A stretch of DNA of 64,000 bases from Lactiplantibacillus garii (GTDB lineage Bacteria > Bacillota > Bacilli > Lactobacillales > Lactobacillaceae), in NCBI RefSeq assembly GCF_003885105.1, contig NZ_QWZQ01000002.1:1-64000 (forward strand), read 5' to 3'. Of the stretch, positions 20,828 through 61,913 are shown one piece after another. Each line of letters opens with the position of its first letter. The stretch's first letter is position 1. The notes beneath the pieces are model-generated. The model ran no database searches. It worked only from the letters and a program-made list of their open reading frames with translations, and was not told the DNA's origin. A program made the translations under genes and the position numbers.

Positions 20828-21112
20828 AAAAAAGCCTTCCATCCCTTGAATTATCAAGGGACGAAAGGCTTCTTTCGCGGTACCACCCAAGTTGTCTGCC
20901 AGATGCAGACCAGCTTTAAAATAGAGTACTAACATACTCTACCGATGATAACGTACCGGTTAACGGCTAATCCTACTTTAACGAAGTTATTTCAGTTAGC
21001 AACTAAGAAAGTGTTATTCGGACTAATCAAGTACTGGTCGGGTTTCCACTCATCCCCGATTCACTGGCAGGTTGATTAATCGTACTCCTCTTTCCTACGT
21101 TTTTTATCTTGT
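20828..21112 (-). promoter_or_regulatory. T-box riboswitch (Asn) controlling asnA-asnS
   Basis: The minus strand holds the conserved T-box core GGGTGGTACCGCG (20876-20888). It is followed by a terminator hairpin, AGCCTTTCGTCCCTTGA / TCAAGGGATGGAAGGCT, and a T run (20828-20870). Upstream, stem I closes with GAAAG/CTTTC. The AGTA of the loop E motif faces GAATAACA, where AAC is the probable specifier codon for asparagine. This agrees with the genes behind it. Readthrough is expected when tRNA-Asn is uncharged. A possible promoter (TATAAA, 19 bases after TTTACA) lies just upstream, near 21120-21150. Confidence 0.93.
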
Positions 21113-30375: not shown

Positions 30376-30447
30376 GCGTCCTTAGTGTAACGGATAGCAC
30401 GCGAGATTTCGGTCCTTGCGATCTCGGTTCGATTCCGAGGGGACGCA
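30376..30447 (+). tRNA. tRNA-Arg (anticodon TCG as folded)
   Basis: A 72-base cloverleaf: acceptor GCGTCCT/GGGACGC, D arm GTGT/GCAC, anticodon arm CGAGA-TTTCGGT-CCTTG, T arm CTCGG-TTCGATT-CCGAG, discriminator A. The anticodon falls at 30409-30411. The last pair of the anticodon stem is an A-C mismatch. CCA is not encoded. A terminator follows at once. Confidence 0.9.
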
Positions 30448-48401: not shown

Positions 48402-48854
48402 GTGGACAATCAAGACGCAGCCTTTTTCAAAAAGTTCAAGGCGCAGATTCACAAGCACCAGTTTACGATCGGCATCAGTGACCTTGCTAAGATGACCGGG
48501 GTCTCACAGACGCAACTGCGCTACTGGGAGCAAAAAAACTACATTCATAGTATTAAAATGACTGAAAAAAATACGGTGCACCGTTACACGTACGGGACGC
48601 TGATGCGGGTCCATTTTATCAAAACGATGCTGGACGAAGGTTTCACGCTGGCGGCGGCAACGCAGCGGGCGGAGGAGCACGGCTTGCAGATGGAAATGAT
48701 GCGGGTGTTCGTGATGAGCGCGTTTCAGGGAATCGAAGAGCGGGATGGTCACCACATGATCAACTTAGGGTATTTTGACGAGGACCACCGCCAAGAATTA
48801 TATTGCTATATTAAGGACAATCAGCCGCACTACCGGGTTTATCCGGTGAAATAA
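48402..48854 (+). CDS. MerR-family transcriptional regulator
   Basis: 150 residues. TIGISDLAKMTGVSQTQLRY and the WEQK after it form the MerR winged helix; FIKTMLDEGFTLAAATQRAEE leads into the dimer helix. The C-terminal part (GIEERDGHHMINLGYFDE) is short and has no metal-binding Cys. Related lactobacillus proteins accompany MFS drug exporters. GTG 48402 follows AGAGGT. It is divergent from the exporter and probably represses both genes from the shared operator. Confidence 0.85.
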   Translation: MDNQDAAFFKKFKAQIHKHQFTIGISDLAKMTGVSQTQLRYWEQKNYIHSIKMTEKNTVHRYTYGTLMRVHFIKTMLDEGFTLAAATQRAEEHGLQMEMMRVFVMSAFQGIEERDGHHMINLGYFDEDHRQELYCYIKDNQPHYRVYPVK

Positions 48855-48898: not shown

Positions 48899-49105
48899 GG
48901 TAGATTTAAGACGGTAAGTGTCGGTCAGTCATTCGGGCATTCAAGTTTCCCGCTCGTCAATCGATCTTATGGCTGGATTGACCGTTGTCATGTTGGTCGT
49001 GTTTTGAAGTTTAACTTTGCAAAAGGATTTACAACGGAGCGCGAAGCAGCGCTGAGAGAAGCCCGGTATAACCGGGTAGAAATCGTGCATAAAAACAACG
49101 TGTAA
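48899..49105 (+). pseudogene. Possible gene remnant
   Basis: An open frame of 68 codons without a start ends at TAA 49103-49105. It reads like the end of a real protein: YGWIDRCHVGRVLKFNFAK and then GFTTEREAALREARYNRV. The GFTTEREAA stretch recalls AP2-type DNA-binding domains of homing endonucleases, but this is weak. No ribosome site was found, so it may be a decayed mobile gene or chance. Confidence 0.25.
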
Positions 49106-49154
49106 TTGAAACTAGTAGTAGTATTCAATCGCCCGGTGATGATACTTACCAGTG

Positions 49155-49191
49155 GGGCCCAAGTGATGCGGGAAAGCTTGGGTCCTTTGTT
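49155..49191 (+). terminator. Terminator-like hairpin
   Basis: GGGCCCAAG / CTTGGGTCC with TTTGTT behind it, ending the region of the possible gene remnant. Confidence 0.5.
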
Positions 49192-49196
49192 ATAGA

Positions 49197-49318
49197 GTGT
49201 AAAGCGAGACGGGTTGCCACTGAGCATAGCCTAGTCACGGCGTTGATTGACGAATTGTGTCAATTGACGTCGTGACGTAGCTAAGCGGAAGGGGCAGTCT
49301 CGATTTACACGTTTCGGC
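49197..49318 (-). ncRNA. Structured repeat element, copy A
   Basis: Read on the minus strand: GCCGAAACGTG (49318-49308), then a hairpin closed by GTGTAAA/TTTACAC and CGAGAC/GTCTCG. TCCGCTT (49289-49283) faces ATGCTCA (49227-49221) in an internal loop, followed by an upper stem of CTACGTCACG / CGTGACTAG type. The distance from the start of GCCGAAACG to the start of TCCGCTT is 29. Function unknown. It is part of the 646-base gap between the MerR gene and the gene at 49501. Confidence 0.6.
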
Positions 49319-49321
49319 TAC

Positions 49322-49409
49322 AAAGGTCAGGTAGTGTGATTGGTGGTTTTTCCAATCGGTCGCTAGACGTAGCAAGCGGAGAAAGCTGTCCTGATTTGCA
49401 CGTTTCGGC
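49322..49409 (-). ncRNA. Structured repeat element, copy B
   Basis: Minus strand GCCGAAACGTG (49409-49399), then 29 bases from its start TCCGCTT (49380-49374). A basal stem GCAAA..TCAGG / CCTGA..TTTGT and an apical CGATTGG / CCAAT hairpin follow. The ATGCTCA motif is not recognisable, so this copy is shorter or decayed. It lies directly before copy A in the same orientation. Confidence 0.55.
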
Positions 49410-49448
49410 CATCTAAAGTAGGTTGACTACGTTTGTGTTTGAAAGCAC

Positions 49449-49476
49449 AAAAAAAGCTTCGGCGCAGGCCGAGGCT
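49449..49476 (-). terminator. Terminator of the gene at 49501
   Basis: Minus strand AGCCTCGGC-CTGC-GCCGAAGCT and a T run. Confidence 0.88.
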
Positions 49477-49500
49477 CAATGATCAATAAATGGTGGTCAA

Positions 49501-49845
49501 TTATGAGTTAGCGATTTGTAAGAAATGGGTGGCGTACCATTCATTCCAGGCAACGGCGGGATTGCCGCTTTCGAAATACTTTTGATCAAGGTTGCTGATC
49601 AGGCCGATGTAATCGGCAAACGAGAAGCTAACGCTGTCGGCTAACCGCTGTTGCTTGGTCAGGTAGCGGCCATAGGTCAGGTGTTCGTTAATGTCGGTCA
49701 TGTAGTTGGCCACGTCATAGTTTGACATGAGTTCGAGGTTGTTAACGTCAAAAAGCGGAATGTAGAATTTAGCAAAATCTTCGACGGCTTTTTGTTGTAA
49801 CGACTCGTTAAGTTGGGTAATTGATAATTGAGCATCATTGTTCAC
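49501..49845 (-). CDS. Hypothetical protein
   Basis: 114 residues from GTG 49845, nine bases after AAGGAGG. It is acidic and mostly helical, with many aromatic residues (FAKFYIPLFDVNNLELMSNY, WNEWYATHFLQIANS). No membrane helix, Cys or known motif is seen. It has a good ribosome site and its own terminator, so it is a real gene. The neighbours give no hint of a function. Confidence 0.7.
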   Translation of the reverse strand: MNNDAQLSITQLNESLQQKAVEDFAKFYIPLFDVNNLELMSNYDVANYMTDINEHLTYGRYLTKQQRLADSVSFSFADYIGLISNLDQKYFESGNPAVAWNEWYATHFLQIANS

Positions 49846-50080
49846 GATGCGGTTCCTCCTTAGTATTGAAGCACGGTCCCAAATAAATTGCGGTAAGTGT
49901 AACCAAAATTGCTTGGTTTGCGCTACAATTTAATTATGGCACGATTAGGCGGGTTTTTCAAAAGTTTGTCGGGATTTAGTGGCCTACTAGTGGCGGGCCC
50001 GCACCAATTGTAGTAAGATAGTGGAATTAACGTTAAAGACGGATTAAAACGTCAATATTTAGTTGAGGTGAAGTATATTC

Positions 50081-50728
50081 ATGACCCCCATGAAGGAAGA
50101 TTACTTAAAAATTATTTTCGAACTTGGTGGTACGAAGAAAAAGGTGTCCAACAAGCAAATTGCACTGAGCTTAGACATCGCGGCCGGTTCCGTGACGGAA
50201 ATGGTCGGTAAATTAGTGCAGGAAGGCTTGGCTAAGCACACCCCGTATGCCGGGATCTCGCTGACTAAAAAGGGGATTCGGTACGCGGAAACCCTAGTTC
50301 GCAAGCACCGCATTTGGGAAGACTTCTTAGTTGATAAGTTGAATTACGACTTGCCCGACGTTCATTCGGAGGCCGAAGTTTTGGAACACGTGACCAGTGA
50401 ACGGTTAGTTGATTCACTGGAAGCGTTCCTCGGCAACCCGACGCATTGTCCGCACGGTGGTGCCATTCCGGATAAGGATGGTCATTACCAGGAAGATAGT
50501 CATACGAGTCTCGCCGACACGGAAGACGGTAGCGACGTGTCCATCGAACGGTTTATTGATAACCACGACCTATTGATGTACTTGCACGACATCGCGTTGC
50601 AGATTGGTCAGCAGGTAACGGTGATCAAGCACGACCCGTTTGAAGGTCCGGTCACGATCGAGGTTAAGGCGACTGGCCAACGGATTCCAGTTAGTTACAA
50701 GGCCGCACACAACGTTTTTGTTAAATAG
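50081..50728 (+). CDS. DtxR/MntR-family metal-dependent repressor
   Basis: 215 residues. N-terminal winged helix (VSNKQIALSLDIAAGSVTEM, then VGKLVQEGLAKHTPYAGISL), dimer and metal domain (RKHRIWEDFLVDKLNYD, then HSEAEVLEHV), and a C-terminal SH3-like FeoA-type domain (residues about 145-215). It represses metal-uptake genes, most often manganese, when the metal is bound. A segment CPHGG, as in DtxR/IdeR, contributes metal or structural ligands. ATG 50081 follows GAGGTG. It is monocistronic, and no transporter is adjacent. Confidence 0.9.
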   Translation: MTPMKEDYLKIIFELGGTKKKVSNKQIALSLDIAAGSVTEMVGKLVQEGLAKHTPYAGISLTKKGIRYAETLVRKHRIWEDFLVDKLNYDLPDVHSEAEVLEHVTSERLVDSLEAFLGNPTHCPHGGAIPDKDGHYQEDSHTSLADTEDGSDVSIERFIDNHDLLMYLHDIALQIGQQVTVIKHDPFEGPVTIEVKATGQRIPVSYKAAHNVFVK

Positions 50729-50741
50729 CATGTAATCTTCG

Positions 50742-50778
50742 CGTCGTCCTGAACAAAATTTTCAGGACGACGTTTGTT
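50742..50778 (+). terminator. Terminator of the DtxR-type gene
   Basis: CGTCGTCCTGA / TCAGGACGACG, followed by TTTGTT. Confidence 0.75.
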
Positions 50779-50851
50779 ATTCTGTTTTATTTATCACGGC
50801 ATAAAGAATCTCAGGAAATTCCGGGATTGGCTACCCTTTTTTAGTGCAATA

Positions 50852-50860
50852 TGCTACAAT
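50852..50860 (+). promoter_or_regulatory. Extended -10 promoter and long leader of the cold-shock gene
   Basis: TGCTACAAT. Transcription from about 50867 gives a leader of about 115 bases before the start codon, typical for csp genes, whose leaders sense temperature. AGGAGG lies before the ATG. Confidence 0.5.
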
Positions 50861-50982
50861 TATGCATGTAGCTTGGTTAGGTAATTTTGGTCAGATCGTT
50901 TCAATAAACTATCCCCATTTGCACCGAATCATGATTTACATTAATTTATACGTGCAAAACGCACTAGGAGGATTTTTTTATT

Positions 50983-51183
50983 ATGGAACATGGAACAGTT
51001 AAATGGTTTAACGCCGACAAAGGTTTTGGTTTTATTACTCGCGAAAACGGTAGCGATGTATTCGTACATTTCTCAGCTATCCAAGAAGACGGCTTCAAGT
51101 CACTTGACGAAGGCCAAGCAGTTACTTTCGACGTTGAAGAAAGCGATCGTGGCCCACAAGCAGTTAACGTTACTAAAGACTAA
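50983..51183 (+). CDS. csp: Cold-shock protein (CspA family)
   Basis: 66 residues, the full family length. RNP1 KGFGFITR and RNP2 VFVHFS are both present after the start [15 protein letters not shown]. It is an RNA chaperone that binds single-stranded nucleic acid and keeps transcripts open in the cold and in growth transitions. A strong AGGAGG ribosome site and a long leader precede it, and a perfect terminator follows. Which csp paralog of the genome it is cannot be told. Confidence 0.95.
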
Positions 51184-51201
51184 TTAACAGCTTAAACGGC
51201 T

Positions 51202-51241
51202 AAAAACGGTGGTTGGATGTAAATCCAATCACCGTTTTTTT
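51202..51241 (+). terminator. Terminator of csp
   Basis: AAAACGGTGGTTGGAT-GTAA-ATCCAATCACCGTTTT and more T. Confidence 0.92.
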
Positions 51242-51322
51242 GTGCGCATAAACGCGACTGGAAAGGATTGGTCTAGAAAATAACTGGGTTAATTTAAATT
51301 TACATAATTGTTAATTAATTTC

Positions 51323-51352
51323 TTTACTTTACTGTTCGAATGGCCCTATACT
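51323..51352 (+). promoter_or_regulatory. Probable promoter of the XrtG operon
   Basis: TTTACT (51323-51328), 18-base spacer, TATACT (51347-51352). The 302-base gap between csp and the operon is otherwise AT-rich and empty. Confidence 0.5.
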
Positions 51353-51485
51353 TAGGTTGAAATAATCGTTACCTACATTAATATTTACTACCATTAAGAA
51401 TTTAATGGCTACGGAAAATTTGTCAAGATTTGATAATTGGTTACAAGTGAAAGCTGAGTTAGTTGTTTGATGTGAGAGGGAATTT

Positions 51486-52883
51486 ATGATGAAAAAAAAG
51501 ATGGCTTTGTTATTAGGAAGTGTGGGATTACTGTTTGGGTTGACGGCTACGGGGGTGTGCGTGAATGCCCAGGCCGCGACGGTCAACTGGGACAACGTCA
51601 CTAAAACTAAGCTGGGCTGGTACTACACGACCAACGTGGCGGTGACCCAGAATAGTCACCAAGTTAGTTTTTACGTGGATACGGGGACTAACCCAGCGTG
51701 GTATAACATTCCAACGCATAATTACGATTTGACCGTTGGGAACCACCATTATTCGGTTCATTATGAGCAATCCGGGTCCACGGTCACTTTCTCTGCCATG
51801 AATACGGATACCTGGAAAGATTTAGGTACGGTGGGCAGCGGGACGCTGACCACTAAAAATGGTTTGGGTGTGTTGATTGGAAGCATTTCGTATCAGGCGC
51901 TGGGACTAGCCGCTGAGCAAACGGTTCCGGTCAGTCTGGGAAACTCTGAGCTGGGAAGTGAAGCGGTTCAGGGCGTCTTTGATGATCAAACGACCGGTAC
52001 GACGACTGGCTCCAGCACGGAAACGGATTCGACTGCGACCAGTAGCAGCTCTAGCACGGAGACGAGTTCGGCGGCAACTAGTAGTAGTTCTTCGACGGCA
52101 ACCAGTTCGGCCACAAGCAGCAGCAGTTCTTCGACGGCAACCAGTAGCAGCAGTTCGGCCACGAAAAGCAGTTCGACTACCAGTGACCCGGCAAAGCAGG
52201 CGGTCGACGGTGCCGCTAGCGACGTTGCCAGCAGCAGTTCGTCGCAAGCTAACAATAACAACGTTAATGGAAGTTTAGGCATTACCATTGACGGTGATAT
52301 GAGTGATTGGGCGGACAAGGATAAACAGGCCATGACGTCTAAGGGCGATAACGATAACGTTAAAAACGTGGCGTTGTTGACCGATGACCAGGCCATTTAC
52401 GCCTACGTGGGTATGCACCCGAAACTCGCCGGGGGCTATACCAATTTCATGCCGTCCGGTTATACGATCGACATTGGCGGTAAAACCTACTACATTACGT
52501 TTAACAACGGTACCACCGTCAACTTAGCGGTGGGTCAAAAACAAGCGGTCACCATGAACATTTATGGTGACAATCAAAGCACGAATCTGACCGGGATGGC
52601 CTACGTGACCCGCTCAAAGATCACCCAGAAGAACGGTAACGACAGTGATTACGATGGCACGGCCTACAGTGTTGAATTTAAGGTCCCGTTTGATAAACTC
52701 ACCGGCGTTTCAAAAACGAGTGGTCAAACGATCACCCTCGCTAACCAGAACTTGTGGACCGGGAGCGTTCAGTCTTCCGGTGGAAGTACGGGTCCGGTCG
52801 TTTTAGCCAGTGTCGGTTTTGTGATTGCCATCGGGTCGGTCATCGGGGTCGTTGGTTTAAAACCGAAGAAGTGGAGTCACTAA
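51486..52883 (+). CDS. Predicted Firmicu-CTERM surface protein, substrate of XrtG
   Basis: 465 residues. Signal peptide to about residue 30 (ending QAATVNW). A first domain of about 140 residues, then a Ser/Thr-rich linker (residues about 175-235) of SSSSTETSS type. A second beta-rich domain starts ITIDGDMSDWADKDK, like carbohydrate-binding modules of family 9 type. The C-terminus GSTGPVVLASVGFVIAIGSV, then a short stretch to KPKKWSH, is a glycine-flanked membrane helix with basic end, the tripartite form of exosortase signals (Firmicu-CTERM). No LPxTG is present. It starts the operon, four bases before the exosortase gene, so it is the obvious substrate. The linker could carry glycans. Confidence 0.8.
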   Translation: MMKKKMALLLGSVGLLFGLTATGVCVNAQAATVNWDNVTKTKLGWYYTTNVAVTQNSHQVSFYVDTGTNPAWYNIPTHNYDLTVGNHHYSVHYEQSGSTVTFSAMNTDTWKDLGTVGSGTLTTKNGLGVLIGSISYQALGLAAEQTVPVSLGNSELGSEAVQGVFDDQTTGTTTGSSTETDSTATSSSSSTETSSAATSSSSSTATSSATSSSSSSTATSSSSSATKSSSTTSDPAKQAVDGAASDVASSSSSQANNNNVNGSLGITIDGDMSDWADKDKQAMTSKGDNDNVKNVALLTDDQAIYAYVGMHPKLAGGYTNFMPSGYTIDIGGKTYYITFNNGTTVNLAVGQKQAVTMNIYGDNQSTNLTGMAYVTRSKITQKNGNDSDYDGTAYSVEFKVPFDKLTGVSKTSGQTITLANQNLWTGSVQSSGGSTGPVVLASVGFVIAIGSVIGVVGLKPKKWSH

Positions 52884-52887
52884 TTTT

Positions 52888-53505
52888 ATGAACGTTTATT
52901 TACTGATTGGCCTAGTGATTTGGGCGTACGTGTTATCAGTACTGAAAAGAGCTCAGTTACCCGCGTTTGCATTTATCGTGGGGAGTGCCGGGCTCTTTTT
53001 CGTCCTAATTAGCTTAGCGGATCCGTACTGGATCTGGTTTGCCACCCACGCCGTGATCAACGGGGTCCGCTGGTTTGGCGATTTGACCGGTTGGAGCAGT
53101 GTGATGACCAAGTACGGCATGGTCAGCATCCATAACGCGACTGTCCCGGTAACGATGGTGATCGACTACGAGTGCTCCGGGATTATTGAAACGGCCGCGT
53201 TTTTAAGCTTAGTCGTCTTTTTTCCAATCTTTAATCAGTACGAGCGGGTCTTCTTTTCGGTGTTTGGGGTCCTGTGGATCTACGCGGCGAACGTGATTCG
53301 CTTGGCGACGGTCATCGTGATCGTGCACTTTGGCGGGGGGCAGCTATACTTTTTAGCCCATTCGATCCTGGGCCGCCTAATTTTTTACGTTCTGGTGATT
53401 GTGTTGTATTACAACGTTTTTACTTTTTCACAAATATCACACAGTTTATACCTCAACTTTCAGGCACAGCTTAAACGATTGAGAAGAAAGGAACCCAAGT
53501 CGTGA
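52888..53505 (+). CDS. xrtG: Exosortase XrtG
   Basis: 205 residues, with about six membrane helices. The transpeptidase-like triad of exosortases is visible: Cys in DYECSGIIETAAFLS, Arg in WIYAANVIRLATVIV, and His in LYFLAHSILGRLIF. It should cleave the C-terminal signal of its target at the membrane and transfer it to an unknown acceptor. XrtG is the exosortase form found in Firmicutes such as lactobacilli and is always accompanied by the three genes that follow here. Its stop overlaps the next gene by four bases. The biochemical activity of XrtG has, to my knowledge, not been shown. Confidence 0.88.
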   Translation: MNVYLLIGLVIWAYVLSVLKRAQLPAFAFIVGSAGLFFVLISLADPYWIWFATHAVINGVRWFGDLTGWSSVMTKYGMVSIHNATVPVTMVIDYECSGIIETAAFLSLVVFFPIFNQYERVFFSVFGVLWIYAANVIRLATVIVIVHFGGGQLYFLAHSILGRLIFYVLVIVLYYNVFTFSQISHSLYLNFQAQLKRLRRKEPKS

Positions 53506-54839
53506 CTTACTGGTTAAACTTAACCCTATTCAAAATGGGATTTTGGATCACCTGGGCACTCGTCCCGATCGTTGTCGAAATTATTCCGGCGTTGGTTTCC
53601 GGAATCCGGATCTTCTTTCGCAACCTGCACCGGCCGAAATTGGAAATGCCGGATAAAATGCCAATGATCTCGGTGATCGTGCCCGTTTATAACTCGGAAG
53701 CGACCCTGTTTGCGTGCATTAAATCGATCCACGATTCCACGTATCCGAACCGCTTAACGCAGGTTATCTTGGCGGACAACGCCAGTACCGACAATAGTTT
53801 TGAGGTGTTTAACCACGCTCAAAATGAGTTTGCGGACATGAATATGCAACTGATGCACACGGAAAAGGGGAAGGCGTCGGCGTTAAACGCGGCGTTATAC
53901 GCTGCCATCGGGACTTACATCATCAACATTGACAGTGACGGGGTTCTAGAAAAGCACGCGCTAATGAACATGGTCCTCAACTTTGAAAATGATTACGAAG
54001 TGTCCGCACTAACGGGCACGATTTTGCCGCAGCACCAACTCATTGCCCGGGGAAAACGGGGACTGTTACAACATAACGAGTACTTTGAATACGCCCAGGC
54101 CTTTTTGTCCGGACGGGTGATCGAGTCCAATAGCAACCACCTGTTTACCATGTCGGGCGCCTTTTCGGCCTTTCGCAAGGAAGCGGTCCTCAACACGTTT
54201 CTATATAATACCGCGACGATCGGTGAAGATACCGACATGACGTTTCAAATCCGGGACAAATTAAAACGCAAGGTCGCCATTTGCGACAACGCGATCTTTT
54301 ACATTGAACCAATCTCCGGCCTCGGGGAGTTATACACGCAGCGTCAGCGCTGGCAACGGGGCGAAGTCGAAGTGGTCCACCAGCAAATTACGGAACTCAA
54401 GTTTGTGGATTTTTTCAAGAGCTTTCTGGTTCGCCGAATGTTGATCGACCACACCTTCCTATTCCCGCGGATGATCTGGATGTTCGCGAGTATCGCGCTG
54501 TTGTTTCTCCGTTACTCCGTGGTCATGATGGCGATGTCCTACGTCATTATTTACCTGCTGTACATTCTGGTGGGGCTACTCAACTACGTCTGCGTCTTAC
54601 AGCTGTTATGGACCTTTCCGCAGGAGCGTCAGTTTTATCGCCGGCAGTGGTGGGTCGCGCTGACCCTGCCGGTCTATAACTTGATTTGTGCGTGGATCCG
54701 TTTCGTGGGCCTGATTAATAGCATGACCCAAACGTCGAGCTGGAATTCGGTTAAATTTGGCACGGAAGCGCGCGGCGTCCGGTTCGTGTTGAAACGGGAC
54801 TTGAAAGAATTTATACGGAAATGGAAGTCGTTAAAATGA
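53502..54839 (+). CDS. XrtG-associated family 2 glycosyltransferase
   Basis: 445 residues. One N-terminal helix, a GT-A domain at about 45-290 (ISVIVPVYNSEATLFACIKS; NIDSDGVLEKHAL with the DxD; EDTDMTFQIRDK; RQRWQRGEVE with the Q/RxxRW motif), then three or four membrane helices. The layout is that of processive membrane synthases of the cellulose/hyaluronan type. GTG 53502 overlaps the exosortase stop. It belongs to the subfamily confined to XrtG loci. It may make a lipid-linked or protein-linked glycan in the same pathway. Confidence 0.87.
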   Translation: MTYWLNLTLFKMGFWITWALVPIVVEIIPALVSGIRIFFRNLHRPKLEMPDKMPMISVIVPVYNSEATLFACIKSIHDSTYPNRLTQVILADNASTDNSFEVFNHAQNEFADMNMQLMHTEKGKASALNAALYAAIGTYIINIDSDGVLEKHALMNMVLNFENDYEVSALTGTILPQHQLIARGKRGLLQHNEYFEYAQAFLSGRVIESNSNHLFTMSGAFSAFRKEAVLNTFLYNTATIGEDTDMTFQIRDKLKRKVAICDNAIFYIEPISGLGELYTQRQRWQRGEVEVVHQQITELKFVDFFKSFLVRRMLIDHTFLFPRMIWMFASIALLFLRYSVVMMAMSYVIIYLLYILVGLLNYVCVLQLLWTFPQERQFYRRQWWVALTLPVYNLICAWIRFVGLINSMTQTSSWNSVKFGTEARGVRFVLKRDLKEFIRKWKSLK

Positions 54840-55204
54840 CGGAAAAATACTATACCTACAAAATGAAATCGTACGTTAACGCCAGCCACGCCATGCGCTG
54901 GGCCGGTGGCGAGGGCAAGCAGCATAACCACACTTGGGAAATTGTTAGCGAAATGCACAGTAAATCCAATAAAATGATTGTCTTTAATCAGATTGAAAAA
55001 CAGTTAAACGGTATTTTTGACACGTTCGCGGGGCAATTTTTAAACACCCTGCCATACTTTAAAACGGTTAACCCAACCGTTGAAAACGTGACGGTCTGGT
55101 TATTTAACCTGATTTCACCGGCGTTAGAAGAACTCGGGGCCGAACTGGTCCGCCTCGAAGTCGGGGAATCCCCGACCCGCTCGTACTGTATCACGGTACG
55201 TTAG
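54836..55204 (+). CDS. XrtG-associated 6-pyruvoyltetrahydropterin synthase-like protein
   Basis: 122 residues. ATG 54836 overlaps the previous stop as ATGA and has GGAAG eight bases upstream. The PTPS/QueD zinc ligands are visible: His in NASHAMRW and HxH in KQHNHTWEI. The position of the catalytic Cys, four residues before the first His of HxH, holds Glu (EGKQHNH), as in PTPS-III-type proteins. LEVGESPTRSYCI carries the C-terminal Glu. The substrate is unknown; with no pterin or queuosine genes nearby, it is likely a repurposed member serving the XrtG pathway. Confidence 0.85.
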   Translation: MTEKYYTYKMKSYVNASHAMRWAGGEGKQHNHTWEIVSEMHSKSNKMIVFNQIEKQLNGIFDTFAGQFLNTLPYFKTVNPTVENVTVWLFNLISPALEELGAELVRLEVGESPTRSYCITVR

Positions 55205-55214
55205 GGGGACCGGT

Positions 55215-56759
55215 ATGCGAAAACGACTATTTCGGATCGGCAACTGGGCCCTGATCGCGCTCTTTAACGGGCTGTTTTTCCTGACGCTTTTTGACGCGGT
55301 GACGTCGCCCAATTTGATCTTAGGGGATAACAAGGTGACGGGCGCGGGAACCACGATGTGGACGACCGGCTGTTTGATCGCCGCCGCGGCCATTTTAATT
55401 AGCTGGCAAACGAGCTGGCGTGTTAAGCGCCTAATGAAGTGGCTCTTTAAGACCCACGCCCTGGCGACGGCGACGGTGTTATTAGCGCTAACGGTCGGCT
55501 GGCAACTGGTCTTTGTATTAGCCGTGCACCCCCCAATTGGCTTTGATGCCGGGGCGATCCACCAAGCCCTCCACGATACGACTAGCGCGGAGATTCGGGC
55601 CTACTTTAGCCTGAACTATAACAACTTGCCGATGTTACTGGCGGAAGTGCAACTGGCGAAGTGGTTTGGCACCACCTCGTGGCTGTTTTTTGACTTAGTC
55701 ACGTTGGTTTTGGTGGATTTATCGGCCCTGCTGAATTTAATTTGCATTGTTCTGGTTGAGCCGCGAAAACTAGTCGCGGGGATGAATATCCACGCAGTTT
55801 GGCTACTCCTGTTCCCCACGATCATCGTGCCGTACACCGACGCTTGGGTATTACCGCTGGTGTCACTGTACCTGCTCGGCGCCGTTGTGATGGTTAAACC
55901 CCGCTTGAACCTTGGGTGGCGGGCGTTAGGCGCGTTACTGTTCAGCGTGGGACTAGTGGGTGCCTACCGGTTGAAACCGTCGGCCATCGTTGCCATGGTG
56001 GCCCTGGTCATCGTGGGGGGATTGTTCGCCCTGCGGCCCCGGCGGTTGGCATGGCCTTCAGTCGGCCAAACCGCGCTGGTATTGTTACTGGCCGCTGGCT
56101 TAACGGCGGGGTGCTACGCAGCAACGGCCCAGTTGTTAAAACGGCAGACCTACATTCAAGTTGATCAAAGTCGGGAGATCCCGGCGATCCACTTTATTAG
56201 TATGGGTGTGTCCGGTGACGGGGGCTACAACGCTAAGGACGCGTTAAAAATGGCGGAACTGCCAAATAAACAAGCCCGGGTGGCCTATTCCAAGCGCGTC
56301 TTAATTCAGCGCTTAAAACGCCGGGGTGCTTGGGGTTACGCGCGCTTTTTAGTTGCCAAACACCGTAATAACACGGCGGACGGCACCTTTGCCTGGGTCA
56401 AGGAGGGCCATTTTATTAACGAAAACCCAATTCCCAAACGGGGTGGCTTTAGCGGCTGGTTGCGGTCGTTTGTTTATTTGTACGGGACCCGCCTCGGTGA
56501 TCTGCGGTTTATGTCCCAAGTCTGGTGGGTCGTTTGGTTAGCGCTGATTGCCTTTGCCTGGCGTGACCAGCGAACCTTTGTGCAGGCGCTCCGACTGACC
56601 ATTATCGGTGGGTTTAGCTACCTGCTGATTTTTGAAGGCGGCCGTAGCCGGTACCTGATTCAATTTTTACCCGCGTTTTTGATGCTGGCGACGTTAGTTT
56701 ACCAAGAATCGTTTAACTGGTTTTACCGTGCGCACCGGTGGTTTACCAAAGCGCCCTGA
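55215..56759 (+). CDS. XrtG-associated GT39-like integral membrane protein
   Basis: 514 residues with about 11-12 membrane helices. The loop HPPIGFDAGAIHQALHDT after the second or third helix has the acidic residue placed as in GT-C (ArnT/PMT-like) polyprenyl-phosphate sugar transferases. YRLKPSAIVAMVAL and GGRSRYLIQFLPAFLML are the other strong family-like patches. It would act on the outer face of the membrane with a lipid-linked sugar. It is ten bases after the PTPS-like gene and ends the XrtG operon. Assignment to GT-C is by pattern only. Confidence 0.82.
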   Translation: MRKRLFRIGNWALIALFNGLFFLTLFDAVTSPNLILGDNKVTGAGTTMWTTGCLIAAAAILISWQTSWRVKRLMKWLFKTHALATATVLLALTVGWQLVFVLAVHPPIGFDAGAIHQALHDTTSAEIRAYFSLNYNNLPMLLAEVQLAKWFGTTSWLFFDLVTLVLVDLSALLNLICIVLVEPRKLVAGMNIHAVWLLLFPTIIVPYTDAWVLPLVSLYLLGAVVMVKPRLNLGWRALGALLFSVGLVGAYRLKPSAIVAMVALVIVGGLFALRPRRLAWPSVGQTALVLLLAAGLTAGCYAATAQLLKRQTYIQVDQSREIPAIHFISMGVSGDGGYNAKDALKMAELPNKQARVAYSKRVLIQRLKRRGAWGYARFLVAKHRNNTADGTFAWVKEGHFINENPIPKRGGFSGWLRSFVYLYGTRLGDLRFMSQVWWVVWLALIAFAWRDQRTFVQALRLTIIGGFSYLLIFEGGRSRYLIQFLPAFLMLATLVYQESFNWFYRAHRWFTKAP

Positions 56760-56837
56760 CTGCCCGCGGATAAATAACCCTTTACTTCGAATCCTACTTT
56801 GATTAAAGTAGGATTTATTAGTGTAGGGGGCGAAAAA

Positions 56838-57581
56838 GTGACGGCCGACGAATTAATTATCGCGACCTGCTTAAAGGCGGGGAAGATCATGGTTGAAAAC
56901 GGGTCAGAAATTTCCCGGGTCGACGATACGATGATGCGCATTGCGCAAAACGCGGGGGTGATCTCCGCCAATACCTACGTGACGATCACCGGGGTCATGA
57001 TGTCGATTCAGGGGCGCAACGCCACGCAGATCATGGCGATCAATAAACGGACGATCGACTTAGAAAAGGTCGCCCAAGTTAACCAGCTTTCCCGGGAGTT
57101 TGCGGCGTCGGCCATTGACCTGCCGACCCTGCACCAGCGGCTCAACACACTGGACGCGGCGTCCCGTTCGTTTCCACTGTGGCTCCAGCTGGTTGGGGCG
57201 GCCCTGGTTAGCGGCCCGCTGATGATCATGTTCCGGCAGGAAATCGTTAACACCTGGCCGACCGTGGTCATCGGGACGCTTGGTTACCTCGTCTTTTACT
57301 TATTAAATCGTTATTTAAAAATTAAATTTTTAAGTGAACTGGTCGCGGCCCTGATCATCGGTTTTGGGGCCGAATGGGCGGTTCAAATCGGCTGGGGCAC
57401 CAACGTCAACGACATCATTATTGGCTCGTTAATGCCCCTCGTACCCGGGGTACCGCTGACTAACGCGGTCCGCGATACCTTGGCGGGCAACTTCGTGAGC
57501 GGCCCGGCGCGGGGCGTGGAAGCCCTGATCAGCGCGGCGGCCCTGGGATTCGGCATTGCCGTTGTCATCACGCTGTCTTAG
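56838..57581 (+). CDS. ThrE-type threonine/serine exporter, N-terminal half (YjjP-like)
   Basis: 247 residues from GTG 56838, with AGGGGG eight bases upstream; the frame runs back to 56799 without a ribosome site. The cytoplasmic N-terminal part (CLKAGKIMVENGSEISRVDD) and GSLMPLVPGVPLTNAVRDT in the membrane part mark the DUF1212/ThrE family. Five or so helices. It works with the next gene, ten bases downstream, as a two-part exporter of threonine, serine or a related acid. Confidence 0.87.
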   Translation: MTADELIIATCLKAGKIMVENGSEISRVDDTMMRIAQNAGVISANTYVTITGVMMSIQGRNATQIMAINKRTIDLEKVAQVNQLSREFAASAIDLPTLHQRLNTLDAASRSFPLWLQLVGAALVSGPLMIMFRQEIVNTWPTVVIGTLGYLVFYLLNRYLKIKFLSELVAALIIGFGAEWAVQIGWGTNVNDIIIGSLMPLVPGVPLTNAVRDTLAGNFVSGPARGVEALISAAALGFGIAVVITLS

Positions 57582-57590
57582 GAGGCCCCC

Positions 57591-58049
57591 ATGAACATTA
57601 TTGGACAATTAATTTTAGCGTACGTCGCGGTGCTGGGCTTTGGGCTGATCATTAACATTCCGCACCAGGCGTTAAACCTGGCCGGCTGGATCGGCACCCT
57701 GACGTGGGGGAGCTACCTGATCGTACAGGCGTTTGACGGTGGGGTGGTTTTTGGCAGTTTAATTGGGTCGGTCGGGATCGGCGTTTTAAGCAGTATGGCG
57801 GCCCGTTATAAAAAGATGCCGGCCATTATCTTTAACATTCCCAGTTTGGTGTCCTTCGTGCCGGGGAGTCAGGCGTATCAAATGGTGCGTAACTTTGCGC
57901 TCGGCAATTACCGCCAGGCGGTCGGCTTCACCCTCCAACTGGTGATGATTACCGGGGCGATTGCGCTGGGGTTCCTGTTAGCCGAGCTGTTAAACCGCTT
58001 GATCGCCTTTTGCACGTTGCGCTGGCGGCTGGCCCACCCGGACCGTTAG
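57591..58049 (+). CDS. ThrE-type exporter, C-terminal half (YjjB-like)
   Basis: 152 residues with about five membrane helices. IPSLVSFVPGSQAYQMVRNF is the conserved motif of the second ThrE half (DUF3815). AGGAGG lies before ATG 57591. In many bacteria the two halves are fused in one ThrE protein; here they are split. Confidence 0.87.
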   Translation: MNIIGQLILAYVAVLGFGLIINIPHQALNLAGWIGTLTWGSYLIVQAFDGGVVFGSLIGSVGIGVLSSMAARYKKMPAIIFNIPSLVSFVPGSQAYQMVRNFALGNYRQAVGFTLQLVMITGAIALGFLLAELLNRLIAFCTLRWRLAHPDR

Positions 58050-58095
58050 GAACCAACTGATTTTTCACACGCGTGTTTTAACCTTTAGCAAAAAT

Positions 58096-58141
58096 AAAAC
58101 CCACCCGCGACTCCCGTTAGGCTGAGTCGTGGGTGGGTTTA
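58096..58141. terminator. Bidirectional terminator
   Basis: AAAACCCACCCGCGACTC / GAGTCGTGGGTGGGTTT, between the convergent exporter and LCP genes. Confidence 0.88.
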
Positions 58142-58159
58142 ACTTTTGATGTTGGCGGG

Positions 58160-59191
58160 TTAGTTTTGGTTAGCGAACTTTTCACCGGTCGTTGCGGACT
58201 TGAGGTTCAAGGATTTCCGCAGGACGTTGGTGACCCGTTGTTTTTCGGATTGTGAAACAACTTCGAAGGATTGACCACTGATCATTTTACCAGTTCCTTG
58301 CGCGTGGTCGGAAACCACGTTCTTAGTGGCACCACGGTAGTTGGAGAAGAGGCTGGTCAAGTTACCGAATGTTAAGTCGGTCCGGGTTTGCTTAGCCAAT
58401 GATTGTAAGAAGTCTTGTTTTAATAAGTTAGAAGCACTGGTACTTTCACTCAGGATGGCGGTGATCAGTTGCCGTTGCCGTTGTTGCCGACCATAGTCAC
58501 CGAGGGGATCATCGTAACGCATCCGGGAGTACTGGAGGGCTTTATCACCGTTCATGTGGGTCTTAACGCCCTTAGTGTAGTGGTAGCCTTCGTAAGTAAA
58601 CGTCCGGATCGGAGTAATGTCGACCCCGCCAATCTCGTTAACGACTTTCTTCATTCCACCCATGTTGATCAACGCGTAGTAGTCGATCGGCACGTTCAAC
58701 CATTTTTGAATGGTGGTGATGGTCGTCCCGGCACTCCCGTAAGCGTAAGCCGCGTTCAACTTAGTGGGGAAGTCCTGTTCAAAGCCCGAAACGGCCACTT
58801 CGGAGTCTCGCGGTAAACTCATTAACGTGGTGGTCTTGGTCTTAGGGTTGATAGTGGCCAAGATGATGGTATCGGTCCGGCCCTTATAATCCCGACCGAG
58901 CGCCCCGGTATCGGTCCCTAATAATAGGATCGATACCGGCTTTTTACCGTTTAACACGGCGCTGGTATTCCGGGATTTCTTGATACCGCTACTCTTAAAG
59001 ACGGTGTTAGCCGCGTTGCGGGCGTTAAAATAGGTCCGCGCGGCGAAGGCCCCGGTCCCGACTAGCAGGACCGCGATAATAATTAAAATTGTATTACGAA
59101 CGGTATGGCTCTTTTTGGGACCTTTTCCCTTCGGACCATTGCCCTTTTGATCATCGTGATGCAATTCTGAACGACTTGGCATATCTTCCAT
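58160..59191 (-). CDS. LytR-CpsA-Psr (LCP) family protein
   Basis: 343 residues. It has a cytoplasmic Lys/Gly/Pro-rich start, one membrane helix at about 30-52 (TILIIIAVLLVGTGAFAA), and an extracellular LCP domain. Conserved parts: LLLGTDTGALGRDYKGRTDT with the pyrophosphate-binding Arg and Asp, LMSLPRDSEV, and YSRMRYDDPLGDYGRQQRQR. LCP proteins transfer teichoic acids or polysaccharides from undecaprenyl pyrophosphate to peptidoglycan. ATG 59191 is used, eight bases after GGAGG; the frame also offers TTG 59206, which overlaps that site. Single gene. Confidence 0.92.
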   Translation of the reverse strand: MEDMPSRSELHHDDQKGNGPKGKGPKKSHTVRNTILIIIAVLLVGTGAFAARTYFNARNAANTVFKSSGIKKSRNTSAVLNGKKPVSILLLGTDTGALGRDYKGRTDTIILATINPKTKTTTLMSLPRDSEVAVSGFEQDFPTKLNAAYAYGSAGTTITTIQKWLNVPIDYYALINMGGMKKVVNEIGGVDITPIRTFTYEGYHYTKGVKTHMNGDKALQYSRMRYDDPLGDYGRQQRQRQLITAILSESTSASNLLKQDFLQSLAKQTRTDLTFGNLTSLFSNYRGATKNVVSDHAQGTGKMISGQSFEVVSQSEKQRVTNVLRKSLNLKSATTGEKFANQN

Positions 59192-59414
59192 GAACTCTTC
59201 CTCCAATGGTAATGTTGCAAAACTTTACCTCAGTTTAGCATTTTTTAGGGCGAACGGGAACTGAATCCGCATAACCTTTCGTTCCTTAACCCGTAATTTC
59301 GATTTTAATCATAACTGTTTTTATAAGAAATGGTGAGGAAATTATGATTTCTTTGTTTTTTTTTAATGTTCAACCTTAAGATATTAAGGTTTCGTTCGGC
59401 GGATTACAGGATTA

Positions 59415-59423
59415 TGGTATAAT
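59415..59423 (+). promoter_or_regulatory. Extended -10 promoter of the PAP2 gene
   Basis: TGGTATAAT, with TTCGGC (59395-59400) 17 bases upstream of the -10 hexamer as a weak -35 box. Confidence 0.6.
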
Positions 59424-59460
59424 TTTAGTAATTTTAATATTAATGGGGGTTCTTGTTTTG

Positions 59461-60123
59461 ATGATCGATAAGTCGCGTCGTCGGCCGATCAAGTTTGTCA
59501 TTGGCGTTATTTTATTTGCCTACCTGAGTTATTTTATCAGTGCCGGCGCCATCGGGATCGACCTGGTGGACGCCGGGCTGACGTCGCTGGTGCAGGTTAG
59601 TAACAGCGGGTTCTTCGTTGGCTTCTACAAGGTGGTCAGCTGGATCGCTTCACCGGCAAAAGACGTTCTTTGGCTGGTGATCTTGGCCTTTCTGATGTAC
59701 GGGTTCAAGTATAAAATTCAGGCCGTTTGGTCGCTCGGGTACATGGCAGGGGCCATGCTCCTGGGGGCCGTCACTAAGCACCTGATTGCCCGGATTCGGC
59801 CGATCAACCACCTGGCTGCCGATACCGGCTACAGCTTTCCGAGTGGGCACGTACTGGGGACGTTCGTGTTGGTCAGCGTGATCATCATTTTCGTGGTGCC
59901 GGAGCTGCCAAGTTACCGGATGGCGCAAATTGTGAAATGGGCCGGTGTCGTGTGGTTGTTGCTGGTAATTTTCTCGCGTATCTACTTGTCCGCGCACTAC
60001 CCAACCGATACACTCGGGGCGGTCTTACTGGCGTGGACGTGGGCGCAAGTGATGGAATGGTTCTACGTCCTGTGGGCGCGGCACCTGTTGCAGTGGAAAT
60101 TATTCTACCGTTCTTATTTGTAA
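59461..60123 (+). CDS. PAP2-family membrane phosphatase
   Basis: 220 residues with about six membrane helices. All three PAP2 motifs are present: KHLIARIRPIN, FPSGHVLG and SRIYLSAHYPTDTLGA. It may dephosphorylate undecaprenyl pyrophosphate or phosphatidylglycerol phosphate at the membrane. TTG 59458 is eight bases after GGGGG and ATG 59461 eleven; ATG 59443 lies before that site and cannot be the start. The long non-coding region behind it holds nested structured repeats. Confidence 0.88.
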   Translation: MIDKSRRRPIKFVIGVILFAYLSYFISAGAIGIDLVDAGLTSLVQVSNSGFFVGFYKVVSWIASPAKDVLWLVILAFLMYGFKYKIQAVWSLGYMAGAMLLGAVTKHLIARIRPINHLAADTGYSFPSGHVLGTFVLVSVIIIFVVPELPSYRMAQIVKWAGVVWLLLVIFSRIYLSAHYPTDTLGAVLLAWTWAQVMEWFYVLWARHLLQWKLFYRSYL

Positions 60124-60242
60124 AGATAACTAATTTAATTAGTATATAAAAAGGTCTGGGACCAAACCGTTAAACTTCGGCCTCATTTTGCTAGTCCGTA
60201 GTGCCGAAACGTGGGCCAAAAGCCAGTTTGTTCCGCTTAACA

Positions 60243-60281
60243 AAAACAGCGGCTGTGACAAAAGTCACAGCCGCTGTTTTA
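60243..60281 (+). terminator. Perfect hairpin after the PAP2 gene
   Basis: AAAACAGCGGCTGTGAC-AAAA-GTCACAGCCGCTGTTTT, 17 perfect pairs. It may be the PAP2 terminator, lying between the arms of copy C. Confidence 0.8.
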
Positions 60282-60297
60282 TCTCCGAACAATTATT

Positions 60298-60416
60298 GTC
60301 GAAACGGGTTTCAAAAGTTAGCGGGCTCCGCTTAACCACGTATGGCAAATAATCCAAGCCCAGGATTATTCGCCATACGCCGTTAATGCTCACCAGCTAA
60401 CCGACTTTTAGCCCAC
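60298..60416 (+). ncRNA. Structured repeat element, copy D (inner)
   Basis: GTCGAAACGGG (60298-60308), TCCGCTT (60327-60333, again 29 from start to start), ATGCTCA (60386-60392). Stems: GTTAGC/GCTAAC, TTAAC/GTTAA, GTATGGC/GCCATAC, and AATAATCC/GGATTATT at the tip. It is a complete copy nested between the arms of copy C. Confidence 0.6.
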
Positions 60417-60472
60417 TCTGTTTACGGTATGCTCGCAAACTGAGCGGCTTTTGGCCCACTTTTTTTGAAAAT

Positions 60473-61276
60473 TTAATTTTCAGTTTGGTTATCACGGAGC
60501 CATTCCAAGGCTAACGTCAGCCAGTGCGCCGCGTGCGGCTGGTCGGCATCAGCCTTCCAAGCCGTTTGACTATTAGCCAGCGCCAACCCGTGGGGACCGT
60601 GTTTAAAGACGTGCAGTTCGTAGGGAACCTTGGCCTGGGCTAAGGCGGTCGCGTAGGCGAGGGAGTTAGTCGCCGGTACGATCGGATCGTCAGCCGTTAC
60701 CCAGATAAAGGTTGGCCGGTTAGTCGCGCTAACGTGTTGATCCGCCGCTAATTGCGCGGGGGTGTTAGTCCACTTGGCTAACGTTGCGGCGTCTTTGGGG
60801 AAGCCCAATTGGGGACTAATGACCGGATAGCCTAAAATGACTTGTTGCGGTTTTAAGGTGTCCGCGGCTACGCCTAATTGCGTCGCAACTTCGGTGGCCC
60901 AGTAGTCGTTATAAAGCGCGACCACGTGACCGCCAACGCTAAAGCCCACCGGGGTGAGCTGATCATCATCGACGTGCCAAGCCGCAGCTTGTTGCCGGAT
61001 CAACTGGACGGCCCGACCTAAATCGAGGACCGCTGCTAATTCTAAGGGTTGTTGGTCACCCAGGAGTGTGTATTCCAAGTAGAACGCCTGGTAGCCGTGT
61101 CCTGCAAACGCCATGGCTAAACTTTCAGCCTGACCAGTCGGGATTTGCGTATACGATCCGCCGGGAACGATTATGATTGCTGGCAGGGTCGTTTGGTGCG
61201 CGTTAGGGTCCGGCTGGTGCAAAAAGCCAGTCAGTTGGGCAGAACTGCCCGCTAATTTTTGTTGAATAACTTGCAT
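60473..61276 (-). CDS. Alpha/beta hydrolase, esterase-like
   Basis: 267 residues. ATG 61276 follows AGAGGTGATT; the frame runs further upstream without a ribosome site. The nucleophile elbow is GFSVGGHV, the oxyanion loop VPGGSY, and the likely catalytic His is in KHGPHGLALAN with Asp in TADDPIVPATN. No signal peptide, so it is cytoplasmic. It resembles the acetyl-xylan-esterase-like group of carbohydrate and small-ester hydrolases common in lactobacilli. Single gene; substrate unknown. Confidence 0.85.
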   Translation of the reverse strand: MQVIQQKLAGSSAQLTGFLHQPDPNAHQTTLPAIIIVPGGSYTQIPTGQAESLAMAFAGHGYQAFYLEYTLLGDQQPLELAAVLDLGRAVQLIRQQAAAWHVDDDQLTPVGFSVGGHVVALYNDYWATEVATQLGVAADTLKPQQVILGYPVISPQLGFPKDAATLAKWTNTPAQLAADQHVSATNRPTFIWVTADDPIVPATNSLAYATALAQAKVPYELHVFKHGPHGLALANSQTAWKADADQPHAAHWLTLALEWLRDNQTEN

Positions 61277-61337
61277 GCAATCACCTCTATTGATATGGTT
61301 AACATAACTATTATAACGCAAATCAGGTGGAACAAGA

Positions 61338-61913
61338 ATGGAAATGGTTACGGTTACAACGCGGGGCGAACGGCTCGAACTCCGGCCGTTCACGTTCGCG
61401 GACGTGACGGATTATTATGAGTTGGTTGCGAATACCGCAATCGCGGCTCCCGCTGGTTTTACACCGGCACACAGTGTGACCGAAGCGGGCTTTCTGCTCA
61501 AACAACAGTTGAAGCTGCCCGAAGTCTATGCCTTGGAACTGCCGGCCCTGCATAAGGTCGTGGGGAGTGTCGGGCTGTACGAACGGATGAACCGTTACGG
61601 CGAACCCGCCCCGCAGCAGATGGACCTAGGTTACATGCTAAACGCCAGCTTCTGGCAACGCGGGATCATGTCGGCCGCGGTCCGGTTATTACAGCGTTAC
61701 GCCTTTGAAACGTTAAAGTTAAAACGGGTCACCGCTAGCTGCCTTGCTGATAACGTTGCGTCCAAATTAATTTTGGAGCATGCGGGTTTTCGGCAGTACG
61801 ACGCGGTCCAACACCCGGATTACGCCCCCTTTGGAGCGGGGCAAACGGAATTGTTTTATGAATGCGTGGGGTTAGCGACCACGCCGGGGGATGATCAGAA
61901 TGCAACTCGCTAA
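61338..61913 (+). CDS. GNAT-family acetyltransferase (RimJ/RimL-like)
   Basis: 191 residues. RLELRPFTFADVTDYYELV at the start and GYMLNASFWQRGIMSAAVRL are typical of the RimJ/RimL branch; the end LKRVTASCLADNVASKLILE and then HAGF closes the fold. It could acetylate ribosomal-protein N-termini, an antibiotic or a metabolite. Its end overlaps the next start (61900), so it is coupled to the Rrf2 gene. AGGTGG precedes ATG 61338. Confidence 0.87.
   Translation: MEMVTVTTRGERLELRPFTFADVTDYYELVANTAIAAPAGFTPAHSVTEAGFLLKQQLKLPEVYALELPALHKVVGSVGLYERMNRYGEPAPQQMDLGYMLNASFWQRGIMSAAVRLLQRYAFETLKLKRVTASCLADNVASKLILEHAGFRQYDAVQHPDYAPFGAGQTELFYECVGLATTPGDDQNATR

Follow-up and report, generated by a model that had tools for sequence, protein, structure and literature searches.

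Several families of intergenic repeats form the background to the element described here, which lies in four copies (A–D) in a stretch of 64,000 nucleotides from Lactiplantibacillus garii (contig NZ_QWZQ01000002.1, positions 1 to 64,000), hereafter the window. Two papers (PMC6542083, PMC3446304) describe the bcr1–bcr3 repeats of the Bacillus cereus group as intergenic, mostly chromosomal and mobile, and often as parts of untranslated regions (UTRs); there a single strain may carry as many as 130 copies of bcr1, and genes with bcr3 in their transcript have longer mRNA half-lives. A third (PMC2267715) presents ERIC as an intergenic repeat folding into one long stem-loop, and lists Efa-1, Bhal-1 and Sta-1 as new intergenic structured stem-loop families of other Bacilli. 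REP sequences are 20–40 bp long and most carry a GTAG or CGTC tag (PMC3733652).

The element in L. garii is longer (∼122 nt) and belongs to a family found in many genomes. It is almost certainly a genuine structured repeat in which one strand is favoured. The reading we favour, and hold to be probable, is that it is a repeated, mobile 3′-UTR RNA element that works like the ERIC, REP and bcr repeats; kinship to these is not implied.

A repeated hairpin with covarying arms

A preliminary description, made from the letters of the window, had recognized copies A–D by two motifs. In its orientation they define the pattern GYCGAAACG-N20-TCCGCTT; the folded strand discussed below is the reverse complement. 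The pattern occurs exactly four times in the 64-kb window (mean 0.00 in 100 shuffles), at the positions claimed, with the starts of the motifs exactly 29 bases apart in all four, and the copies do sit between long open reading frames (ORFs). A third motif, ATGCTC, had been reported for A, C and D and is seen in these three; B is without it.

Across the L. garii genome (a 158-contig draft) the pattern with a gap of 18–24 has 49 matches, 46 of them with a gap of exactly 20; read backwards, it has none. Pattern searches gave 209 distinct matches, comprising 140 full copies and 69 that are short, truncated, variant in a motif or viral chance matches (below, L labels denote the sequence stretches, or loci, studied and G labels the sampled genomes). 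A covariance model built, along the lines suggested in the preliminary description, from 60 diverse full copies (R1) finds 119 places in the L. garii genome at E≤10 and 100 at E≤0.001, and is positive in 209 of 397 Lactobacillaceae genomes and 24 of 40 genera. A lack of further copies in related genomes, which would have refuted the preliminary description, was not what came out: many Lactobacillaceae genomes do hold them. Lactiplantibacillus and Levilactobacillus account for most of the matches listed, among which are also Pediococcus, Lentilactobacillus and uncultured Lactobacillus. Copies per genome range from 1 to at least 135 across 25 genomes preselected as R1-positive. High-copy genomes include G062 (135 model copies, which may be a floor), G003 (119), G129 (101) and G159 (26 exact-pattern copies).

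Distant relatives are found elsewhere in the class. In a class-wide sample R1 was positive in three genomes beside L. garii. A second model, R2, includes sequences of these three (G597, G693 and G656), which thus match by construction. It was positive in 16 of 398 class-wide genomes beside L. garii, from five further families; 13 of the 16 do not match by construction, and two rest on doubtful matches (L354, which folds differently, and L355). Tandem copies with a period of ∼123–125 are seen in several R2-positive genomes. The 11 pattern stretches in viral contigs all lack the CACTCT arm (11/11) and were set aside as chance matches; one viral sequence with the pattern (L176 and L186) also holds ATGCTC. 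Searches with blastn at E 0.01 returned nothing from plasmids (two queries) or phages (one query), single divergent queries being apt to miss relatives.

On the folded strand a typical copy of ∼122 nt reads AGAGUG – P1 – bulge GGNU – P2 – GAGC – inner hairpin P3 – GCGGA – P2′ – P1′ – CACGUUUCGRC, and full copies, mostly 118–130 nt, end in AGAGTG and CGTTTCGRC. Covariation was assessed on two alignments. The first (A1) holds 60 of the 140 full copies, with those more than 82% alike or outside 115–131 nt left out. Because most of the copies studied were found via GYCGAAACG..TCCGCTT, the constancy of these motifs in A1 is partly by construction. The second (A3), collected by model and fitted to it, is a wider set that brings in further genera and two more families and has a few poor matches at its end; here the pattern motifs vary and the pairing is kept.

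RNAalifold predicts 34 pairs on A1. Over these, 92.8% of 2035 cells are paired, against 64.1% in shuffled alignments and 31–42% when slid; both sides have changed in 545 cells (144 in shuffles), and the covariation score is 0.692 (0.167 shuffled). The corresponding values for A3 are 92.3% paired, 801 cells with both sides changed against 231, and a score of 0.836 against 0.177. The outer arms vary and covary, being near-constant only at the base (GTG/CAC), and even a pair next to the near-constant loop flips from C-G to G-C in some copies (GAGC/GCGGA becoming GAGG/CCGGA).

Which strand folds can be read from the mismatches. In the pattern orientation, mismatches within the arms that have Watson-Crick pairs on both sides number 227 for A-C and 28 for G-T (135 copies), and the excess holds in all five copy groups examined. 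Within A1 the counts are 82 and 33, with A-C ahead in 21 columns, behind in 4 and tied in 9 (sign test, p=0.0009). Mean minimum free energy is −61.3 kcal/mol for the reverse complement against −46.5 kcal/mol for the pattern strand and is lower for the former in 135 of 137 copies, although part of the gap stems from loops common to all copies and the copies, being related, are not independent events. From the A-C excess and the lower energy, the reverse strand is likely the one that folds, whether in RNA or in single-stranded DNA. The preliminary description, which had placed the fold on the other strand, was thus mistaken in orientation; its suggestion that selection acts on RNA structure stands insofar as covariation and fold energy strongly support selection on a folded strand, the one opposite to that proposed.

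Stop codons, terminators and turnover

Gene context was taken from a simple ORF caller without annotation, which flagged 17 of 218 copies as lying inside an ORF. On the folded strand the upstream gene is co-directional in 156 of the 206 copies that have a called upstream gene. Among the 166 of 218 copies with a recognizable 5′ end, 60 start 0–20 nt behind a co-directional stop codon and 77 within −8 to 20 nt. The former range gives the fair comparison, since the control holds only positions outside ORFs: of the 536,200 positions between genes at these loci, 2.8% lie 0–20 nt behind a co-directional stop, an enrichment of ∼13-fold for the element. In the L. garii genome alone the figure is 12 of 30 copies, and some copies themselves supply the stop codon, with a TAG or TAA of their own. 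A T-run lies within 16 nt in 20 of 166 copies (controls, 3% and 5%). Neighbouring genes are convergent for 92 of 194 copies, against 148 of the 545 spacers of 120 nt or more overall, those with an element counted too. By a strict terminator test, 69 of 151 copies of the main subfamily have a terminator behind them and 15 of 151 have one before them.

A similar placement recurs among distant R2 relatives. Of 16 examined, some sharing a genome and the two doubtful ones excluded, seven start −11 to 7 nt from a co-directional stop (L356, L342, L343, L346, L348, L350 and L352), and a distant-relative array (L345) also begins at one. Many main-subfamily copies are likely 3′-UTR elements.

Other arrangements were seen in passing. 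Head-to-head pairs of elements, with 31–107 bases between their starts, occur in several genomes (L009/L010, L045, L055, L071, L202, L292), and a separate repeated stretch (GTGAGTGAGCCAAATTTAGGCTCAGCCGTGGGATTTGG or near-identical) precedes several copies on the pattern strand (L094, L096, L149, L151).

Sites are not stably occupied. R1 was used to scan ∼1 kb behind the orthologues of the window's MerR-type and PAP2-type genes in 21 genomes of the genus, L. garii included: 10 of the 21 genomes have an element at the MerR site and 2 of the 21 have one at the PAP2 site. G273 and G352, the nearest genomes by these two genes, have no element at either site. Where orthologous sites are both filled (L008/L078 and L054/L087), the element sequence versions differ. 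In another pair, whose two members share one site (L118/L146), the upstream flank is 97.6% identical over 546 bases and the inner stem is nearly the same, and both outer arms differ together. Differing versions at orthologous sites fit copying or conversion between copies.

Copies are also nested within one another (D within C, L021, L196), and trailing units of arrays keep the 3′ end and miss the 5′ part. In short forms the inner stem is missing from between repeats of TAACC-like bases, a loss that slippage across a hairpin would be expected to cause. A tandem of two full copies and a partial unit occupies the PAP2 site of one genome (L264, in G099), its first copy starting at the PAP2 stop codon itself. 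No longer, gene-carrying copy with the same ends was present in the loci studied, which hold only arrays and nested copies. The flanks are rich in (not G)-A-T on the 3′ side and in A on the 5′ side. No shared target-site duplication was seen in them, filled and empty sites being too diverged to give exact ends. ERIC is associated with a TA duplication, and a duplication of this kind was looked for in the flanks and not seen. The preliminary description had wavered between small RNAs and a mobile hairpin, which is half right: the copies behave as a family of repeats that occupy different sites in different species, and many of them are placed as 3′-UTR elements of the upstream gene, on the strand opposite to the one it had read.

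A probable mobile 3′-UTR element and the alternatives

Because the element often lies directly behind a stop codon, it should be transcribed as the 3′ untranslated tail of that mRNA. We envisage that it would be co-transcribed with the gene in front; in the main subfamily an intrinsic terminator often stands behind it. A single trans-acting factor, such as an RNase or an RNA-binding protein, may keep the loops and flanks near-constant, or a shared fold may do so; the hairpin could, by analogy with bcr3, ERIC and REP, alter 3′-end decay or translation termination; and an enzyme would copy whole cassettes to new places. Our best guess, drawn from placement and these parallels, is that the element alters the fate of the mRNAs that carry it.

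Several observations weigh against this account. For 50 of 206 copies the gene upstream does not run in the element's direction. At the MerR site the subfamily of A and B comes after a terminator and its T-run and may therefore be transcribed apart from what precedes it, and the strict test seldom finds a terminator beside A/B-type copies, either before or behind. The upstream proteins share no function: 50 were scanned of 88 collected, and none of the 112 Pfam families found occurs in more than two. Orthologous genes do without the element and therefore do not need it. Scans for the RVT_1 and Y1_Tnp families identified no mobilizing enzyme. Strand bias alone cannot separate RNA from single-stranded DNA. 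Finally, the number of A1 pairs with a double change is 28 of 34 against 25.9 in shuffles, a value reached in 34 of 500 shuffles; A3 is barely above its shuffles (32 against 29.1), as are further pair types (90 against 82.9 in A1, 111 against 107.2 in A3). The case for covariation therefore rests on the cells and the score.

The alternative that survives best, though we think it unlikely, is that the fold is needed as single-stranded DNA by a recombinase of the host or encoded by an element, which would recognize the hairpin on one strand in the manner of integron integrase with attC or of RAYT with REP, the place behind stop codons being simply one where insertion is harmless. It would accommodate the preference for one strand, the variation in site occupancy between species and the position of the A/B subfamily behind a terminator at the MerR site. 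However, the ∼13-fold enrichment behind co-directional stops speaks against it, as do the pairs of the G.U type, which make up ∼9% of arm pairs (227 of 2521). About 9% of such pairs is a level to be expected of RNA. Nor does the distribution of Y1_Tnp (PF01797) help this explanation: present in 15 of 40 genomes scanned, among them L. garii, G003, G012, G030 and G292, the family is absent from G062, G129 and G159, all rich in copies, and from G024 and G082.

That the copies are independent small-RNA genes with promoters of their own is a good deal less probable. The fold is stable and a terminator often stands behind it in the main subfamily, as such genes would have, but the 60 of 166 copies that start 0–20 nt behind a co-directional stop would leave hardly any space for a promoter that does not overlap the gene in front.

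Still less credit can be given to a non-autonomous retroelement, whose RNA would be copied back into DNA. Such an origin would explain both the favoured strand and the trailing array units, in which the 5′ half is missing and the 3′ end is kept, and RVT_1, found in 11 of 50 genomes scanned, occurs in some with high copy numbers (G012, G024, G030 and G186). It is, however, missing from L. garii, G003, G062, G129 and G292. Absent as each is from several high-copy genomes, neither RVT_1 nor Y1_Tnp is required in the genomes that lack it, and mobility based on reverse transcriptase or on Y1 finds no support. Last, it is barely credible that these are ordinary palindromes whose arms are tidied by template-switch repair without selection on a folded strand, for, although arms can change together (L118 against L146), repair ought also to remove the constant loops that do not pair, yet these persist, and it predicts no strand bias, against the A-C excess and the energy difference given above.

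If the mobile 3′-UTR RNA element is what it appears to be, many unrelated genes carry the same 3′ tail, with consequences for terminator annotation, and the family would offer a handle on bacterial 3′-end processing and on the spread of structured repeats without an obvious enzyme. Across many genera of tractable food bacteria it joins strong covariation, one-strand selection and placement at stop codons. A bolder version, which we put forward tentatively and regard as doubtful, is that mobile 3′-UTR modules throughout the class insert at stop codons with their RNA tail and often a terminator, and put up to at least 100 unrelated mRNAs under one RNA-binding or processing factor; a selfish repeat would in this way build and rebuild a post-transcriptional network.

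The window and the described repeat systems

The positions of the four copies and of their neighbours are collected in Table 1. The long stem claimed for the copies is borne out for A (fold z-score −7.75, pattern strand against shuffles) and for the block of C and D (−9.58). B departs from the claim: it is a half unit rather than a full hairpin, hence its weak fold (z-score −1.81), and it scores only 15.9 bits with R1 (E 0.16). Copy A sits behind the T-run of a terminator that belongs to a conserved upstream RNA. In C the inner stem has been replaced by copy D and D's terminator-like hairpin; that D is nested follows from the 3′ arm of C, which lies beyond it. Intact C-type copies exist elsewhere in the L. 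garii genome (L009/L010), where hairpins of D's terminator type also adjoin many D-type copies.

Table 1. Copies of the element and adjacent features in the window.
Feature	Positions	Strand	Basis or remark
MerR-type regulator-like ORF (predicted), upstream of A/B	48402–48854	+	relatives matched in 21/21 genus genomes
Copy A, full element	49194–49318	folded strand +	R1 match 49190–49324 on pattern (−) strand, 101 bits
Copy B, unit without 5′ half on folded strand, directly behind A	49322–49409	+	pattern match 49374–49409
PAP2-type phosphatase-like ORF (predicted), convergent neighbour	59443–60123	+	relatives matched in 21/21 genus genomes
Copy C, outer arms ∼60203–60245 and 60429–60459	60203–60459	folded strand −	sequence, pattern match, fold
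Terminator-like hairpin (GAGGCTGTGAC..GTCACAGCCTC type) behind D on folded strand	60245–60281	−	sequence, own-genome flanks
Copy D, full element nested in C	60298–60419	folded strand −	R1 match 60292–60423 on pattern (+) strand, 113 bits
Serine-hydrolase-like ORF (predicted)	60473–61393	−	3′ end faces 5′ end of copy C on folded strand

The conserved RNA between the MerR-type ORF and copy A is a second such feature of the window: ∼280 nt long (48910–49190, +) and terminator-ended, it could be aligned in 18 of 21 genus genomes (the remaining three were missed by the search expression used), shows a double change in 15 of 85 predicted pairs and has no Rfam match at threshold. Further along (51486–56759, +) lies a surface-protein-like ORF, behind which come a membrane ORF of exosortase type, one that resembles glycosyltransferases, and others; together they look like an exosortase-linked glycosylation cluster.

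At gathering score Rfam 15 has three matches in the whole window (a T-box leader at 20854–21106 (−), a cspA thermoregulator at 50850–51237 (+) and a tRNA at 30376–30447 (+)), none on the elements. When 48900–60700 was searched to E 10, the best match at an element was mir-994, on D's terminator hairpin, whose 30.5 bits fall short of its gathering score of 93, and four further loci (L217, L219, L277, L322) searched to E 1 gave none reaching gathering score. Sub-threshold matches of microRNA, sRNA and snoRNA type at or near elements were rejected on that ground. The earlier suspicion that no named Rfam family covers the element thus holds at threshold for the window and the other loci tested. 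Enterobacteria and the B. cereus group are known to have repeated hairpins at gene ends, but the literature searched, which excludes most subscription journals, gave no description of such an element in Lactobacillaceae.

Several known classes were compared. An intrinsic terminator, a short GC-rich hairpin with a T-run after it, does not describe the element, a longer hairpin with internal loops that has a separate terminator behind it in the 69 of 151 copies noted above. A MITE of a DDE transposon would have conserved terminal inverted repeats, where here the outer arms vary and covary, and the lack of RVT_1 from several high-copy genomes speaks against membership of the retroelements. The motifs of attC, hammerhead and group II introns, tried on the element sequence, led nowhere. 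An attC site would have RYYYAAC at one end of its hairpin and GTTRRRY at the other, together with IntI; one subfamily of the element does have a GCTTAAC/GTTAATG pair, which lies in the interior of the hairpin.

Nearer comparisons are with the repeats named at the outset, set beside the element by description. REP and BIME sequences are, like it, repeated palindromes at the ends of genes. Many REPs are found near stop codons, and REPs there can affect translation; no paper on REPs near stop codons turned up in the literature searched. At ∼122 nt and with other ends the element is nonetheless not a 20–40 bp palindrome with GTAG or CGTC, and several high-copy genomes have no Y1 transposase, so length, tag and RAYT-type transposase all argue against membership. 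ERIC, at ∼127 bp and co-transcribed with neighbouring genes, is an intergenic long stem-loop of similar kind, but its host lineage is the enterobacteria, and the element differs in its covarying stems and near-constant loops. Efa-1, Bhal-1 and Sta-1 are likewise intergenic structured repeats in Bacilli, a likeness that implies no kinship to the R2 relatives. The bcr1–bcr3 repeats live in other hosts and are described with a TTTAT motif, none of which is evident in the flanks here, and resemble the element in being intergenic and high-copy and, on the reading favoured here, mobile and UTR-associated. What is new beside all of these is an element, unlisted in Rfam, that extends family-wide and combines near-constant loops and freely covarying stems with a position at the stop codon.

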